Under the pieces are notes generated by a model, which saw nothing but the letters and a program-made list of their open reading frames with translations, was not told the DNA's origin and made no database searches. From the NCBI GenBank assembly GCA_028706745.1, contig JAQTVM010000015.1:1-35644 (forward strand): a stretch of DNA of 35,644 bases. Direction: 5' to 3'. Each line of letters opens with the position of its first letter. Within the stretch, counting starts at the first letter, position 1. Made by a program: the position numbers and the translations under genes. Source of the stretch: Candidatus Nanoarchaeia archaeon. GTDB lineage: Archaea > Nanobdellota > Nanobdellia > SCGC-AAA011-G17 > GW2011-AR17. Below are positions 21,675 to 35,595 of the stretch, one piece after another.

Positions 21675-21754
21675 GAAGGGTACTCCAGTGTATCGCCTGA
21701 GTAGGGCTTGCCCCAAACGGCGTTGCTGGGCTGGGAGCTAACGCTCGACCCTTC
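21675..21754 (+). ncRNA. Candidate 80-nt structured small RNA (three-armed, closed terminal stem)
   Basis: The ends pair perfectly: GAAGGGT (21675-21681) with ACCCTTC (21748-21754). Inside, arm 1 is ACTC(C)AG / CTGAGT (21682-21702), arm 2 is GGG-CTTG-CCC (21704-21713), and arm 3 is GCGTT-GCT / AGC-AACGC (21720-21744). A T-run (CTTTTTTC) follows. An upstream TATA box predicts a start at ~21673-21676. The size and cloverleaf-like outline resemble a tRNA, but there is no T-loop TTCRA, no D-loop GG and no anticodon arm of normal size. It is not a C/D sRNA by eye. The 3' end touches the stop codon of the convergent gene at 21753. Confidence 0.45.
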
Positions 21755-22337
21755 AACTTTTTTCATTAAACTTTCTCTTTTGATAATTGCTCCGTATAAA
21801 TCCTTGAAGTTCCCTTAAATCCTCTTTTGTAATGGAATAATTTGGATTCAGTTTCTTTCGCAATGTCTTGCGCGCGGTTTGATTAGCCATTGAGCGTGGA
21901 GCTTTTATCAATATGCCTTCTATTTTACAGCTTTTTCTGAAAGTAAGCTTTATTCTCGCTTCAACTTTGCTGCCAAAATGCCTGCAGGCGCGGTAGAAAT
22001 ACTTTTCGACTTTTTCTTTTGGGCGGGCGTCAGGGCAAACAATTATTGTGCCTTGCATTTTAGGATTAAGCGCTGCAATTTTGTGTATCATATACGCATG
22101 AATAATCGTTATGACAATGCTGTTGGCGTTCCTCTCTTTTTGGAATTCGTGATAATTTGGCTTGTCTTTTGGTATATTGTGGCAAAATTCTTCTTTAATG
22201 CTCAATTTATATTCTCCGTTTAATTTTATTGTAAACCGGAATGATTTATCTTGGCTGATTATTGCAAGGATAGTCTCCTTATTCCATGGATTTTCAATTT
22301 GGTTAGATATATCTGCTTCATACACTTCCTCTTTCAT
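21753..22337 (-). CDS. Unknown protein
   Basis: 194 residues, not recognised. It is soluble and basic towards the C-terminus. Segments include GTIIVCPDARPKEKVEKYFY, a Cys/His pair (FYRACRHFG) and KLTFRKSCKIEGILIKAPRS, ending with a helical basic tail. The N-terminal half has beta-rich FRFTIKLNGEYKLSIKEEF. A minus-strand TATA-like CTTAAAAA (plus 22360-22368) is ~23-31 nt before the ATG at 22337, so leaderless. It marks the edge of the accessory region, with the palindrome array beginning just upstream of it. Confidence 0.65.
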   Translation of the reverse strand: MKEEVYEADISNQIENPWNKETILAIISQDKSFRFTIKLNGEYKLSIKEEFCHNIPKDKPNYHEFQKERNANSIVITIIHAYMIHKIAALNPKMQGTIIVCPDARPKEKVEKYFYRACRHFGSKVEARIKLTFRKSCKIEGILIKAPRSMANQTARKTLRKKLNPNYSITKEDLRELQGFIRSNYQKRKFNEKS

Positions 22338-22407
22338 GTCTTTTTTGATATGATTGCTGTTTTTAAGCGTTTCTTTAATTTTTTGACGATACGAGATTTA
22401 AGTGCGC

Positions 22408-22632
22408 ATATTTTCAAGATGTCAGGAAAATATTCAAGTTTTATGGAGATTTTTTAGTAAATCCGAATTTTAATCCCGTCGAATTCGACGGGTTTAGACA
22501 GCAGGAAAATTTTGTTTGGACAAAAGAAGAACGTTTTGTTGACGTCAACAAAATGATAATTCATAGGCGACCATTTTCCTGATGTCAGGAAAATGGTTTT
22601 AGGGATCGTTTTCGTGACATCACGAAAACGAT
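22408..22632. repeat. Array of five palindromes/hairpins with shared TGA-N2-TCA core
   Basis: In order: stem ATATTTTC / GAAAATAT (22408-22433); the perfect 18-bp palindrome CCCGTCGAATTCGACGGG (22475-22492); the perfect 20-bp palindrome TTTTGTTGACGTCAACAAAA (22534-22553); 12-bp arms CCATTTTCCTGA / TCAGGAAAATGG with centre TG (22571-22596); and 13-bp arms ATCGTTTTCGTGA / TCACGAAAACGAT with centre CA (22605-22632). A weaker stem TTTTGT / ACAAAA is at 22510-22525. Three centres read TGACGTCA, TGATGTCA and TGACATCA. No gene is seen in this ~300-bp gap. The last hairpin abuts the stop of the gene at 22635. Confidence 0.8.
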
Positions 22633-22634
22633 GA

Positions 22635-24083
22635 TTATTCCAAAGCTGCTTTCTCTATAATTAATCTTCCGACGCACTCTGATTCCATCTTTATTTCTGC
22701 TTTCTCAATAATTATTTTCTTTTTAAAGAACGGAGCGTTAAGGACAAGGGATTCTGTCTCTCCACCCTCCCCTGCTATGTTCATGCCGTTCTTTTCGTTA
22801 ATCTTCACCAATTTGTCAATATCCTTCTCTGTAATAACTTTTCCAAGCCAGGACTTGTCCAAGCCGTCTGCGGCAACCGCCGTGAATATGAATTCAAAGC
22901 CATTTTCTATTAATTCTCTTAATTCTGTTTCCTGGTTCTTGTGCCAGAGCGGGGAGAATGATTTCAAGCCTAGCTTGTCTGCTATCTTTTGTATTCTGTC
23001 GCTCTGGTATTCTGAATACAATGCTCCTGTCACAATGCCTTCAATTTGGTACTGCTTTTTTGCCTTTCTTATTGCTTCTTCCAGGTCTTTAAGCTCTTCT
23101 TCCTTCTCGCCCTCTGTTTCGTGATACATTATTGGTATTTCCATTGCCTTTGATTGTAATTCTGTTATTTCAATTGCAGGAGTGTGGAACATGAACGAGT
23201 CCTTGTTTTTGCTTTTGATTGTGATTAAGCAGCTTATTTCGTGTTTTTGCTTTTGCATAAGGTGCAATGCATAGCAGCTGTCCTTGCCTGAGCTGAACAA
23301 GACTCCCAATTTCATTGGTTTTTTTAATAATGAGCTTAGGTATTCTGTTTTTGAAACTCCTTTTGCTAATTTCTCAATCGCCTTGTCTGCGTTGCTTCCG
23401 TACTGCGCTGCTTTCTTTGCTCTCATTGCTATAGCTTCTGGCACTCCCATGCTTATTGCTATCTGCCTTAGAATCAGTTTATTGTGCTCTCCTATTTTCT
23501 TTTCAGGCGGCAGGGATAATGCTAATTTGGCTAATTCTTCGTCCATGAAAGGCGATATTGCTGTCAAGTTGTTTGCTTCTGCTATTTTTGCATCCCTTAT
23601 GCAGTCTTTTGATTGGATAGCCAGGAAGTCTTTCCTGCAGTCCTTGTTAAGGGTGTTTGTTTTCTTGTATCTTGCATAGCCGCCAAACAATTCATCTGCG
23701 CCTGTGCCGTTTAAGACTACTTTTACGTCTTCTTTTGCCATTTCGCAGGCTGCGTACAATGGCATTGCAACGCCTATTTGGATTGGGTTTGAGTCGTTTA
23801 ATACTTGCAGGACTTTCTTTAGGGTTTGTTCCGGGTTTGCTATTCTTGTTTTTAACTTGAAGTTTAGGGCTTTTGCAGCTATTTGCGCTTTTTCTATGTC
23901 TTCTGCCTGGTTATCAAAGCCTGCTGTGTAGCATATGAAGTCTGCTTTTAGTTCCCTGCATATTCTTGCTATTAGTATTGAATCCAATCCACCTGAGAAG
24001 AGTATTCCGAATTTCTCTTTTGGGATTCTTGATTTTACTGCAGACATCAGTGCTTTCTTGACTTGTTCCAGTGAATTGTCCAT
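22635..24083 (-). CDS. Asparagine-synthetase-like domain fused to a Dph6/MJ0570-like ATP pyrophosphatase
   Basis: 482 residues with two PP-loops. Residues ~1-240 resemble the C-terminal (synthetase) domain of AsnB: FSGGLDS (29-35), NGTGADELFGGYARY (124-138) and ISPFMDEELAKLAL. Residues ~255-482 resemble the DUF71/Dph6 family: LFSSGKDSCYAL (261-272), IVTGALYSEYQSDRIQ, GFEFIFTAVAADGLD and the EGGETE signature. AsnB normally has an N-terminal glutaminase domain, which is absent. Dph6 amidates diphthine on EF2 using ammonia. The fusion suggests an ammonia-dependent amidating enzyme, but the substrate is not proven. A minus-strand TATA (plus GTTTATAAAT, 24108-24117) gives a leaderless start. Confidence 0.88.
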   Translation of the reverse strand: MDNSLEQVKKALMSAVKSRIPKEKFGILFSGGLDSILIARICRELKADFICYTAGFDNQAEDIEKAQIAAKALNFKLKTRIANPEQTLKKVLQVLNDSNPIQIGVAMPLYAACEMAKEDVKVVLNGTGADELFGGYARYKKTNTLNKDCRKDFLAIQSKDCIRDAKIAEANNLTAISPFMDEELAKLALSLPPEKKIGEHNKLILRQIAISMGVPEAIAMRAKKAAQYGSNADKAIEKLAKGVSKTEYLSSLLKKPMKLGVLFSSGKDSCYALHLMQKQKHEISCLITIKSKNKDSFMFHTPAIEITELQSKAMEIPIMYHETEGEKEEELKDLEEAIRKAKKQYQIEGIVTGALYSEYQSDRIQKIADKLGLKSFSPLWHKNQETELRELIENGFEFIFTAVAADGLDKSWLGKVITEKDIDKLVKINEKNGMNIAGEGGETESLVLNAPFFKKKIIIEKAEIKMESECVGRLIIEKAALE

Positions 24084-24532: not shown

Positions 24533-24587
24533 ATAAGGGGCTCTACCCCTTATAATCCCCGCGGCAATTCGTGACGCAGTGCGTCAC
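24533..24587. terminator. Two hairpins at the 3' end of the DUF1016 gene
   Basis: The perfect palindrome GTGACGC-AGT-GCGTCAC (24571-24587) overlaps the DUF1016 stop codon. ATAAGGGG-CTCTA-CCCCTTAT (24533-24553) follows on that strand. Both could stop transcription or protect the mRNA 3' end. Confidence 0.5.
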
Positions 24588-25558
24588 ATTTCAACAACTT
24601 TTCTCAATTGTTCGGGAGAAGGCAGGCTGAGCATATATCTTGATGTAAATATCTGGTTGCTTATGCCTCCAAGCGCATATTTTATTTCAATGTTTTCGTT
24701 ATTGCGGGATAAGATTATGCCTATTGGTTCATTATCACCAATTGAATTAACCTTGGATTTAAAATAATTGAGATAAAGATTCATTTGCCCTATGTCTGCA
24801 TGGCTGCCTTTTATCTTTAAGTCTATAAGCACATAGCACCTTAGAGTCTTGTTATAAAATACCAAGTCTGCATAAAACTGCTTTTTGCCTATATTTATCC
24901 TGAACTGCCTTGCCACAAAGCTAAACCCCTTTCCCAATTCCAGCAGGAACATCTGGAGGTTTTTGATTATTCTTTCTTCAAGCTCTTTTTCAGAATAAGG
25001 CTCAGGCAGCTTTAGGAATTCAAGCACATAAGGGTCTTTTATTATATCTTCAGGCTTTTGAATGGCTTGCCCTGTTTGAGACAGCTGCAAAATTCCCCCT
25101 TGTCTTTTTCCTGCGAGTAACCTATGAATTAGTCCTGAATTTATCTGCCTTTTTAATTCTCTAACACTCCAATTCTCTTCAAAACACTGCTTTTCATAAA
25201 ATGCCTTTTCCAAATCGTCATTTATTGCTAATATCTCGACATAATGGCTCCAAGACAATTTCCGCGACAGTGTCGCGGAAATCTTAAAATTAGTATAAAA
25301 ACGCCTCATACGTTCAAGGTTATCAACAGAAAATCCCTTCCCATATTTCTGCTTAAGGTCATTAGACAGCATTTTCAGCAGCCTGCTTCCATATTTTGCC
25401 TTTAATTTTCCCCTCTGCTCAAACTCCACAATCCTTCTTCCTATCTGCCAATAAGTTTGTGTTATGGCTGCATTGACAGCAGACACAGCCTGCCTTCTGC
25501 CGCTTTCCAAAAGATTCCCTATCTCTGAAACAAGCAGGCTATAGCTCTCTTTTTTCAT
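24584..25558 (-). CDS. DUF1016/YhcG-type PD-(D/E)XK nuclease-like protein
   Basis: 324 residues, near family length. The N-terminal helical DUF1016 domain has TYWQIGRRIVEFEQRGKLKA, YGSRLLKMLSNDL and LSWSHYVEIL. The C-terminal nuclease-like domain has FSFVARQFRINIGKKQFYADLVFYN, LRCYVLIDLKIKG (D...D-x-K core) and HADIGQMNLYLNYF. Family members are common in mobile regions and are suspected DNA-processing nucleases; activity is unproven. The coding sequence contains a long perfect palindrome at 25260-25284. It lies between two HTH-remnant pseudogenes. The upstream promoter is weak by eye. Confidence 0.88.
   Translation of the reverse strand: MKKESYSLLVSEIGNLLESGRRQAVSAVNAAITQTYWQIGRRIVEFEQRGKLKAKYGSRLLKMLSNDLKQKYGKGFSVDNLERMRRFYTNFKISATLSRKLSWSHYVEILAINDDLEKAFYEKQCFEENWSVRELKRQINSGLIHRLLAGKRQGGILQLSQTGQAIQKPEDIIKDPYVLEFLKLPEPYSEKELEERIIKNLQMFLLELGKGFSFVARQFRINIGKKQFYADLVFYNKTLRCYVLIDLKIKGSHADIGQMNLYLNYFKSKVNSIGDNEPIGIILSRNNENIEIKYALGGISNQIFTSRYMLSLPSPEQLRKVVEM
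25260..25284. repeat. Palindrome inside the DUF1016 coding sequence
   Basis: Twelve-base arms ATTTCCGCGACA and TGTCGCGGAAAT around a single G. On the coding strand it specifies part of KISATLSRK just before the conserved LSWSHY block, so it is compatible with a working protein. Confidence 0.7.
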
Positions 25559-26083: not shown

Positions 26084-26222
26084 GCCCTGAAACAGCCAAA
26101 GAGTGCATAACTGGCAGTAAGAAGAAGGATATGAATAAAGCGGATGGCTGCAGTGCAGCCATGGTATATTGGCAAAGCCCTGCGGGGCTTTGCGTGACCT
26201 GAAAAACTTTCAGTTTTTCAGA
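25971..26222 (+). repeat. Long direct repeat, copy A
   Basis: From GGATAGGCCCTGACAAGGGC through the tri-hairpin element. Matches 27629-27913 with scattered substitutions and a few indels (roughly 80% by eye over the first 110 bp and the last 80 bp, weaker between). Confidence 0.8.
26144..26221 (+). repeat. Tri-hairpin element, copy 1
   Basis: Three consecutive hairpins. Hairpin 1 is ATGGCTGC-AGT-GCAGCCAT (26144-26162), hairpin 2 is GCAAAGCCC-TGCG-GGGCTTTGC (26172-26193), and hairpin 3 has 10-bp arms CTGAAAAACT / AGTTTTTCAG (26199-26221). It sits between a decayed HTH gene and the convergent ATPase gene. Confidence 0.85.
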
Positions 26223-27609: not shown

Positions 27610-27891
27610 GAAATAGGCATTTTGAAAAGGATAGGCCCTGACAAGGGCACTGGGAAGTTGTTGAATAAGCGGGTTACTGCACTTGAAAACAACTCGCCGG
27701 ACAGCTTTAGATTCAGGAATAACAATAGAAAAAGAATTGCCCAAGCCCTGAAACAGGCAAGGAGCGGGAAGAAGAAGGATATAAAGAATAAAGAGGCAGA
27801 GAGAGCAGAGAAGAGAAAGGTAGAGAAAGCCAATGGCTGCAATGCAGCCATGGTGTATTGGCAAAGCCCCGCAGGGCTTTGCAGGACCTGA
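27610..27891 (+). pseudogene. C-terminal HTH-protein remnant (copy 3)
   Basis: Only the very end of the family remains, KRIGPDKGTGKLLNKRV, with the same four-base loss as copy 2. The out-of-frame extension ALENNSPDSFRFRNNNRKRI and a Lys/Glu-rich stretch follow, running through the tri-hairpin to a stop at 27891. The open frame of ~88 codons has no start with promoter or ribosome-binding support and is most simply a fossil. It belongs to the long direct repeat. Confidence 0.55.
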
Positions 27892-27913
27892 AAACCACGA
27901 AGTGGTTTTCAGA
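27629..27913 (+). repeat. Long direct repeat, copy B
   Basis: Matches 25971-26222; about 33 bp longer because of an A/G-rich insertion (AAAGAATAAAGAGGCAGAGA region, ~27780-27828) before the tri-hairpin. Confidence 0.8.
27833..27912 (+). repeat. Tri-hairpin element, copy 2
   Basis: Hairpin 1 is ATGGCTGC-AAT-GCAGCCAT (27833-27851), hairpin 2 is GCAAAGCCC-CGCA-GGGCTTTGC (27861-27882), and hairpin 3 has 11-bp arms CTGAAAACCAC / GTGGTTTTCAG (27888-27912). The linkers GGTGTATT and AGGA resemble those of copy 1. Confidence 0.85.
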
Positions 27914-34061: not shown

Positions 34062-34135
34062 GAAAGCCACGGGCTTTCGGGCACCTGCAAAGCACTTCGT
34101 GCTTTGCCACCAGAACATGGCTGCATCGCAGCCAT
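34062..34135 (-). repeat. Tri-hairpin element, copy 3 (inverted)
   Basis: On the minus strand, hairpin 1 is ATGGCTGC-GAT-GCAGCCAT (34117-34135), hairpin 2 is GCAAAGCAC-GAA-GTGCTTTGC (34087-34107), and hairpin 3 is GAAAGCC-CGT-GGCTTTC (34062-34078). It lies directly after the stop of the reductase remnant. Same order and spacing as copies 1 and 2, but with different, still complementary inner bases. Confidence 0.8.
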
Positions 34136-34602: not shown

Positions 34603-34860
34603 AGGCGTTAGGGGAGCTTGAAGGCTAACTAAGTTGTCCACAAATTGTGTACAACTGCTTTTCCACGGCTTTGTCAAGTGGTTCCTTGCATTATTTGGCA
34701 TTCAATAAAGCCGTCTCCGAGGAAAGGCTTTGAAAACTTTTCACAAGAGCCGAAAATACGCATTACTCAGCCGAAAATTCAGAGCCACTTGCCACTCGTC
34801 ACACGAACGCACAGGATTTATAAGCAACATAATATTCATCATACGCAGGAAGGTGATAGA
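34603..34860. other. Non-coding leader/junction region before the BRO-N gene
   Basis: No gene is seen. It holds a near-perfect hairpin AGTTGT-C-CACAA-A-TTGTG-T-ACAACT (34632-34656) and a pair of GCCGAAAAT units (~34751 and ~34781). TATA-like GATTTATAAG at ~34815-34824 and the Shine-Dalgarno AGGAAGGTG (34847-34855) of the next gene close the region. Confidence 0.5.
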
Positions 34861-35595
34861 ATGGAAGAACATAATGCGCTGGTAGTATTTCAAGGAATGC
34901 CCATCAGAAGGGAATGGCATAATAACGAGTGGTATTTTAGTGTAACAGACATAATCTTAGTTTTAACTAACAGCAAAGATTCACTTGCATACTGGAGAAA
35001 ATTAAAGCAAAGGGAACCCCAACTCGTGACAATTTGTCACGCTTTCAAATTGCCTGCTGCGGACGGCAAATTAAGGGCTGCAGACTGCGTTAATACACAA
35101 ATGGGCTTTAGGCTTGTGCAGTCCATTCCTTCGCTGAAAGCAGAGCCGTTTAAGCAGTGGCTTGCCCAGGTTGGCTACGAGCGCATACAGGAGATACAGG
35201 ACCCTGAGCTTGCCCAGAACAGGGCAAAGGCATATTACGAGATGAAAGGATACCCGAAAGACTGGATTGAAAAAAGATTAAGGGGCATTGCCATAAGGCA
35301 AGAATTGACTGATGAATGGAAAGGCAGGGAAGTCACGGAAGAGAAGGAATTTGCCATACTTACAAATGAGATAAGCAAGACTGCCTTTGGAAAGACAGTG
35401 GAAGAATACAAGGAGCTTAAAGGGCTGAATAAACAGAACCTGCGCGATCACATGACTGACTGGGAGCTTATACTTACAATGGTTGGAGAAAAAGCAACAA
35501 CAGATATTACAAAGGCAAAAGACTCAACAGGATTTGAAGAGTGCAAGGAATCCGCCCATGAGGGCGGAAAGATAGCCCAAGATACCAGAAAGTAG
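34861..35595 (+). CDS. BRO-N/antirepressor-like protein, probably ended by a premature stop
   Basis: 244 residues from the ATG at 34861, which has its own Shine-Dalgarno; the open frame upstream to 34645 is non-coding. The N-terminal BRO-N domain has VVFQGMPIRREWHNNEWYFS, VTDIILVLTNSKDSLAYWRK and LVTICHAFKLPAADGK. QSIPSLKAEPFKQWLAQVGY, ERIQEIQDPELA and RLRGIAIRQELTDEW follow, as in archaeal/bacterial BRO-family antirepressors. The frame ends GGKIAQDTRK-TAG, but the same frame continues IEEKTGKSIVSKDNF to the window edge, as intact relatives do, so GAG to TAG mutation is likely. The family is linked to phages and mobile elements; the exact role is unknown. Confidence 0.82.
   Translation: MEEHNALVVFQGMPIRREWHNNEWYFSVTDIILVLTNSKDSLAYWRKLKQREPQLVTICHAFKLPAADGKLRAADCVNTQMGFRLVQSIPSLKAEPFKQWLAQVGYERIQEIQDPELAQNRAKAYYEMKGYPKDWIEKRLRGIAIRQELTDEWKGREVTEEKEFAILTNEISKTAFGKTVEEYKELKGLNKQNLRDHMTDWELILTMVGEKATTDITKAKDSTGFEECKESAHEGGKIAQDTRK

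Follow-up and report, generated by a model that had tools for sequence, protein, structure and literature searches.

The window analysed here, a stretch of 35,644 nucleotides, is contig C13 of a Woesearchaeales-like archaeon (labelled G000; 1,236,138 bp in 32 contigs), and one of its intergenic gaps holds five dyads inside 225 bp (22408-22632), four of which (P2 to P5) are near-perfect. At P5 the array abuts the stop codon of a minus-strand gene for a 482-aa Asn_synthase/diphthamide-synthase fusion (22635-24083), and at its other end it lies 70-295 bp upstream of the start of a minus-strand open reading frame of 194 aa without a Pfam match (21753-22337). P1 (22408-22433, ATATTTTCAAGATGTCAGGAAAATAT) is a degenerate palindrome of the dinD type and has a frame reading AYFQDVRKIF, and P2 (22471-22496, TAATCCCGTCGAATTCGACGGGTTTA) is a palindrome of the KilA-N type that reads NPVEFDGF. 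The other three are again of the dinD type. P3 (22532-22555, CGTTTTGTTGACGTCAACAAAATG; core at 22534-22553, TTTTGTTGACGTCAACAAAA) has the variable block GTT/AAC and reads ERFVDVNKMI, P4 (22570-22597, ACCATTTTCCTGATGTCAGGAAAATGGT) has 13/13 arm pairs with the variable block CCT/AGG and reads DHFPDVRKMV, and P5 (22605-22632, ATCGTTTTCGTGACATCACGAAAACGAT), also with 13/13 arm pairs, has the variable block CGT/ACG and reads DRFRDITKTM.

An earlier note on this DNA had reported five strong dyads in these 225 bp, three of them with TGA-N2-TCA centres, and had taken the first for a degenerate version of the fourth. The dyads are present, the three centres read as that note stated, and P1 is identical to P4 at 20 of 22 positions (91%, across 22410-22431). 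Its view that the arms are unrelated does not hold, however: P1, P3, P4 and P5 share the frame TTTT-NNN-GACGTC-N'N'N'-AAAA and thus represent a single type of site in which a 3-bp block and the ends vary; P3 to P5 fit this frame with a paired variable block, single changes at the centre apart, while P2 belongs to a distinct type. Four dyads of score at least 10 (loop of at most 2) were observed in a region of 450 bp, compared with none in 1,983 and one in 17 of 2,000 order-1 shuffles of that region, and never more than one. The genome as a whole contains 92 dyads of this score versus 24-35 in shuffles, and P2 to P5 form its sole cluster of four, the largest cluster in the shuffled genome being two.

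The sites of the array have counterparts inside genes. P1, P3, P4 and P5 match a palindrome found in dinD genes at the DHFxDVxKMV codons, and P2 matches one found in KilA-N genes at the NFNxVEFDGF codons, fitting the coding palindrome TTTAA-N..-TCGAATTCGA-..N'-TTAAA at NF[NK]xxEFD. These correspondences show that the array sites originated as counterparts of the coding palindromes of dinD and KilA-N. G000 has neither a dinD gene nor a KilA-N gene, and the array is therefore an orphan set of such sites. P2 lies within a KilA-N-like relic (22424-22531, plus strand), in which about 41 codons align with residues 47-87 of the KilA-N protein of a sister species at 37% identity. The tblastn E value of this relic is 2e-5 in a search space of 400 bp and 0.67, which is not significant, genome-wide, so that the relic is weak on its own; P2 lends it support.

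The relatives that a protein search gives are Woesearchaeota and Nanoarchaeota assemblies. A DNA search of relatives found a counterpart of P3-P4 in the sister species G002 (C13:11628-11692), where both the arms and their order are unchanged. P2-like sites of the KilA-N type occur at two other intergenic places in G002, and the KilA-N motif of its own KilA-N gene is likewise palindromic. In G000, a second place (C4:3911-3968) holds two more dinD-type sites, and the 26 nt at C4:3911-3936 recur unchanged in the dinD palindrome of the sister species G003; both G003 and G005 have the same palindrome within a gene that NCBIfam names DNA damage-inducible protein D. G000 thus carries five strong dinD-type copies plus the degenerate P1, and one copy of the KilA-N type. 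Around P3-P5, the C4 sites and the G002 pair, similarity to dinD amounts to essentially nothing beyond the palindrome. Among the matches listed for 371 archaeal genomes, G000 and G002 are the only two with clear cases of well-paired dinD-type palindromes that lie outside dinD genes, and in the other genomes the good matches lie in dinD genes. A genome-wide family of TGA-N2-TCA palindromes was also considered and rejected, as such palindromes occur in G000 in the window and in C4 only, and most of the weak matches elsewhere pair poorly or fall within dinD. As for orthologous gaps, which the earlier note had expected to carry palindromes, the outcome is divided: in a comparison that covered some of the loci, these palindromes are absent from the orthologous gap in G002, which has a different pair of hairpins, and the dinD-type pair lies at a distance of 1.6 kb. 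The array is therefore not fixed in place.

Partial genes are found as well. The dinD remnants in other archaea (L284-L289) keep the part that codes for the palindrome, and G003 has a 32-aa KilA-N fragment (L168). One locus (L287, G266:C82:5695-6021) is a short open dinD derivative in which profile positions 1-83 are fused in frame to 255-283, the palindrome region immediately preceding the junction. Another dinD gene (L293, G172:C1:3396-4451) is interrupted in frame, near profile position 207, by about 220 bp and is open over 380 codons. At a further locus (L144:854-1711), DinD residues 54-95, around the motif coded by the palindrome, weakly resemble the archaeal RNA polymerase subunit N/Rpo10 (E about 0.001), a likeness that is short and weak and probably due to chance.

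In archaea and viral contigs, genes of the dinD, KilA-N, ORF6N and DUF1016/YhcG families, whose products are phage-type proteins with DNA-binding domains, contain one dominant coding palindrome each, with two or three in some ORF6N genes. We scanned codon-aligned genes at even and odd centres, scoring 12 pairs against a control in which synonymous codons were resampled. The mean pairing was 9.98/12 for dinD, where 6.57 was expected (43 genes, z 17), 10.94/12 for KilA-N, where 6.96 was expected (36 genes, z 19), 10.5/12 for ORF6N, where 5.16 was expected (10 of 15 genes aligned at the site, z 12), and 10.41/12 for DUF1016, where 4.73 was expected (17 genes, z 16), compared with at most 6.6 at all other positions in these genes. 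The DUF1016 palindrome is seen with odd centres, and an even-centre scan misses it; in viral contigs, the scan for DUF1016 gave no match. In a separate count of the dinD motif in 44 distinct genes of archaeal, plasmid and viral-contig origin, 12.05 of 15 positions were palindromic, compared with 8.33 for random synonymous codons, for which 1,000 simulations gave 9.05 at most; the figure was 3.8 in other parts of the gene and 10.1 for chimeric halves taken from different genes. Strong palindromes are found in 49-86% of the family genes versus 3-8% of neighbouring ORFs; the diphthamide-synthase control family has no palindrome peak, and the DUF4143 ATPase family has no coding palindrome. Among the long ORFs of G000, the strongest palindromes sit in ORF6N and DUF1016 genes.

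The arms of these coding palindromes change in a paired manner. In dinD, the codons on either side of D-V are often mutual reverse complements (for instance, GTT/AAC, CCT/AGG, GCT/AGC and CGT/ACG, and further CCC/GGG, TCC/GGA and ACT/AGT). Conserved blocks flank a variable block, and at KilA-N positions 5-9 and DUF1016 positions 2-8, mostly three to four Watson-Crick pair types are seen. The KilA-N arms show 9-21 double changes per position among 35 genes, and in DUF1016 a serine codon covaries with its partner, as GAG..TCT in one gene and GCG..TCG in another. The palindromes of the four gene families are thus maintained as DNA, their two arms covarying. Among the mismatches there is no preference for G:T, and the constraint therefore acts on double-stranded DNA and not on an RNA hairpin. 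An arm-replacement hotspot between close homologues was considered as well, and the results were mixed, with no general rule. The ORF6N genes of the genus hold between one and three palindromes, arranged in tandem and in frame, 16-20 codons apart and with different arms, an arrangement that P3-P5 resemble. Some dinD genes (for instance, Thiothrix, L361) have no good palindrome, and dinD homologues align without gaps at the site whether or not a good palindrome is present. In the open-access papers searched, we found no report of palindromes in DinD, KilA-N or ORF6N genes.

The window itself contains further members of these types. A DUF1016/YhcG gene on the minus strand (24584-25558) has the coding palindrome ATTTCCGCGACACTGTCGCGGAAAT at 25258-25282, at ISATLSRKLSWSH, and this is an in-gene member of the same phenomenon as the array. 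A DUF1016-type palindrome, GTGACGCAGTGCGTCAC, lies at the 3' end of this gene (24571-24587), and an ORF6N-type palindrome, AGTTGTCCACAAATTGTGTACAACT, lies upstream of the Bro-N coding region (34632-34656). The Bro-N gene (ORF 34645-35595) has a coding palindrome of its own, CGTGACAATTTGTCACG at 35025-35041, with a centre resembling that of the ORF6N genes. Across G000, palindromes with one of the four centre types number 14 outside the family genes (13 of them intergenic) versus about one in shuffles, with two of the 14 placed in the DUF1016 type by their centre only and possibly belonging to another hairpin family.

The genome also carries hairpin repeats of other kinds. A family of three hairpins (CTGAAAA..TTTTCAG, GCAAAGC..GCTTTGC and ATGGCTGCA..TGCAGCCAT) occurs in the window at 26144-26221, 27833-27912 and 34087-34135, with further copies in C4, C24 and C28 of G000 and in sister genomes; the order of the hairpins is fixed, and the arms change yet stay paired. 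These repeats matched no Rfam family in the window, and none of the translations tried gave a Pfam counterpart. Two-hairpin families of the same build are found at C24:37460-37519 and C30:57106-57158 of G000, at C13:12745-12795 and C7:27838-27886 of G000, and at C32:46338-46385 of G000 together with C13:10041-10091 of G002. Moreover, the pair AATAAACCTC..GAGGTTTATT and CTGGTGACATATGTCACCAG, or its first half, lies at the starts of C10, C11, C17, C20 and C25 and at the ends of C8, C18 and C27 of G000, and this repeat near contig ends probably broke the assembly.

The explanation that we favour, and that we hold to have an even chance of being right, is that the array consists of orphan cognate sites of dimeric DNA-binding modules, sites that are built into the modules' own genes and were left behind or multiplied between genes. 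Each palindrome would be the two-fold symmetric binding site of a dimeric DNA-binding module encoded by its gene, the conserved blocks serving as a shared frame and the variable block of 3-7 bp as the determinant of specificity. As phages and plasmids shuffle such modules, the site would move along with its gene, and the intergenic copies would derive from such genes, being kept or multiplied as extra sites after gene loss, perhaps as decoys, operators or immunity-like sites. The earlier note had listed a set of binding sites among its possibilities; that idea has become the leading candidate, and the identity of the sites as orphan counterparts of dinD and KilA-N coding palindromes is new.

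Conserved blocks around a variable symmetric block are what one expects of a homodimer site with diversifying specificity. The best, though weak, match of AlphaFold models of KilA-N and DinD is DdrC of Deinococcus, a dimeric DNA-binding protein; searches for solved structures by sequence gave none for DUF1016 and insignificant matches for KilA-N. Little is known about the recognition sequences of KilA-N domains outside fungi, and TCGA is the motif given for the fungal KilA-N relative Xbp1 (2016, eLife 09492, PMC4862756). The core of the KilA-N palindrome contains TCGA, and this common motif is suggestive of binding; it is not proof, because the protein sequence, too, restricts which letters the core can have.

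Recognition of the palindromes by the protein of their own gene may be the case or may not, with about equal probability, because the flanks hold no second copy, the arms differ within the array and the encoded structural elements differ. Most genes have no second copy of their own palindrome within 1.5 kb on either side, and such copies are no closer than in controls. An operator with a second same-arm site in the promoter was rejected for this reason, the gene's own palindrome not being found in the flanks. Since the arms differ within one array, one protein is not expected to bind all of its sites, and the arms of the G002 KilA-N gene (CCCCTC) do not match those of the intergenic KilA-N-type sites of G002 (CCCGTC). 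Furthermore, the stretch that the palindrome codes for is a helix in KilA-N and a beta strand in DinD, and it is therefore not a shared recognition element. A more ambitious proposal is that the genes of at least four families (DinD/Bro-N, KilA-N, ORF6N and DUF1016) are self-addressed: the stretch encoding part of the DNA-binding domain would be the two-fold symmetric target of that domain, its symmetry would dictate codons and amino acids, paired arm changes would diversify specificity, and sites would multiply in tandem and in orphan arrays. We advance this proposal tentatively, judging it to be somewhat more likely wrong than right.

A more passive origin, in which dinD and KilA-N genes were gained and then lost and the palindromes are their leftovers, seems to us rather unlikely, although it has several observations in its favour. 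P2 sits in a KilA-N-like relic, fragments of KilA-N and dinD genes are known from G003 and other archaea, the latter with the palindrome-coding part retained, and both genes are missing from G000. Nevertheless, what resembles dinD near P3-P5, in C4 and in the G002 pair is essentially the palindrome alone, and the decay of whole genes would not leave the same 30 nt three times side by side. The arms are, moreover, still perfect although the flanking protein is just 73% identical in the sister species, and P3-P4 is found again as a pair in G002. The earlier note had also thought of a graveyard of a palindromic mobile element; the graveyard part agrees with the 41-codon relic around P2 and with the absence of both genes from the genome, but a generic mobile element is less supported, given that clear dinD-type palindromes outside dinD occur in two of 371 genomes, among the matches listed.

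That limited distribution also weighs against a mobile or self-propagating unit similar to REPs or Rickettsia palindromic elements, in which a hairpin multiplies, enters genes in frame and keeps its symmetry through hairpin-templated correction, an account that we regard as improbable. That ORF6N genes and the array hold tandem copies whose arms differ would fit it, as would the existence of copies without gene flanks, the difference between families in the encoded structural element and the many other multi-hairpin repeat families of the genus. However, each gene family has one fixed position for its palindrome across archaeal genomes and viral contigs, and in the case of dinD also across bacterial plasmids, and templated correction alone would leave the palindrome-free neighbouring genes unexplained. 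In addition, a Y1 (HUH) transposase of the RAYT type (PF01797) gave no match in G000, with matches in three sister genomes.

Very improbable, in our estimation, is an origin as RNA hairpins, that is, as structures of mRNAs or small RNAs that act as terminators, processing sites or in translational control. Every dyad can form a stem, and some lie at gene ends, but palindromy continues through the centre and the coding palindromes do not tolerate changes of the G:U type better than others; the lack of a G:T bias among non-Watson-Crick cells led us to reject the RNA hairpin as the main reading. There are also no terminator-like sites (a GC-rich stem with a T run) in 22300-22750, in line with the remark in the earlier note that the array is more than a terminator needs, and no matches to Rfam families in the window. 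Finally, some long AT palindromes do arise in AT-rich gaps, but an effect of chance or base composition can be dismissed in view of the shuffles and of the independent recurrence of the same sites in the coding sequences of many genera.

KilA-N, Bro-N and ORF6N domains occur widely among phages and DNA viruses. Should recognition of the coding palindrome be borne out, one could read the targets of many uncharacterised proteins from their own genes, and domains shuffled among phage regulators would bring along their own address. Even if binding fails, a constraint at the DNA level that dictates amino acids in four gene families needs an explanation.

Among known systems, a CRISPR array was considered and rejected, the units here being 67-76% identical, with spacings of 40 and 35 and differing arms instead of near-identical repeats and constant spacers. 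REP and BIME sequences are similar in that they, too, are short palindromes between genes and often come in twos or threes; in contrast, the sites described here are low-copy, have no common arm sequence and have counterparts in the coding sequence of specific genes, and a REP/RAYT system was rejected, the genome lacking many near-identical copies of one palindrome. The closest published ideas are the palindromic elements of Rickettsia (PMC4316617) and the coding palindromes of nematomorph mitochondria (PMC6649704). The former likewise lie between and inside genes, in frame, but they are about 100-150 nt long and occur in unrelated genes, compared with 25-34 bp and one fixed site per family here; an insertion of this type was rejected, given the gap-free alignment of dinD homologues at the palindrome. 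The latter are perfect inverted repeats in protein-coding genes, but they reach 284 bp, are lineage-specific and mitochondrial, and are not tied to families of DNA-binding proteins. The families that host the palindromes here include DNA-binding domains of the antirepressor type (KilA-N, Bro-N and ORF6N), which are known to be shuffled among DNA viruses and for which we did not find a built-in palindrome in the open-access literature. The coding palindrome of dinD normally lies inside the dinD gene, unlike the array copies, which are outside any dinD gene and whose similarity ends at the palindrome. Autoregulatory operators and intragenic cognate sites are exemplified by parS inside spo0J/parB genes. 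Such systems, too, have a two-fold symmetric site inside or beside the gene of a dimeric DNA-binding protein, but the candidate sites described here have arms that are hypervariable between homologues and yet symmetric, in four families, and their symmetry dictates which codons and even which amino acids are used.
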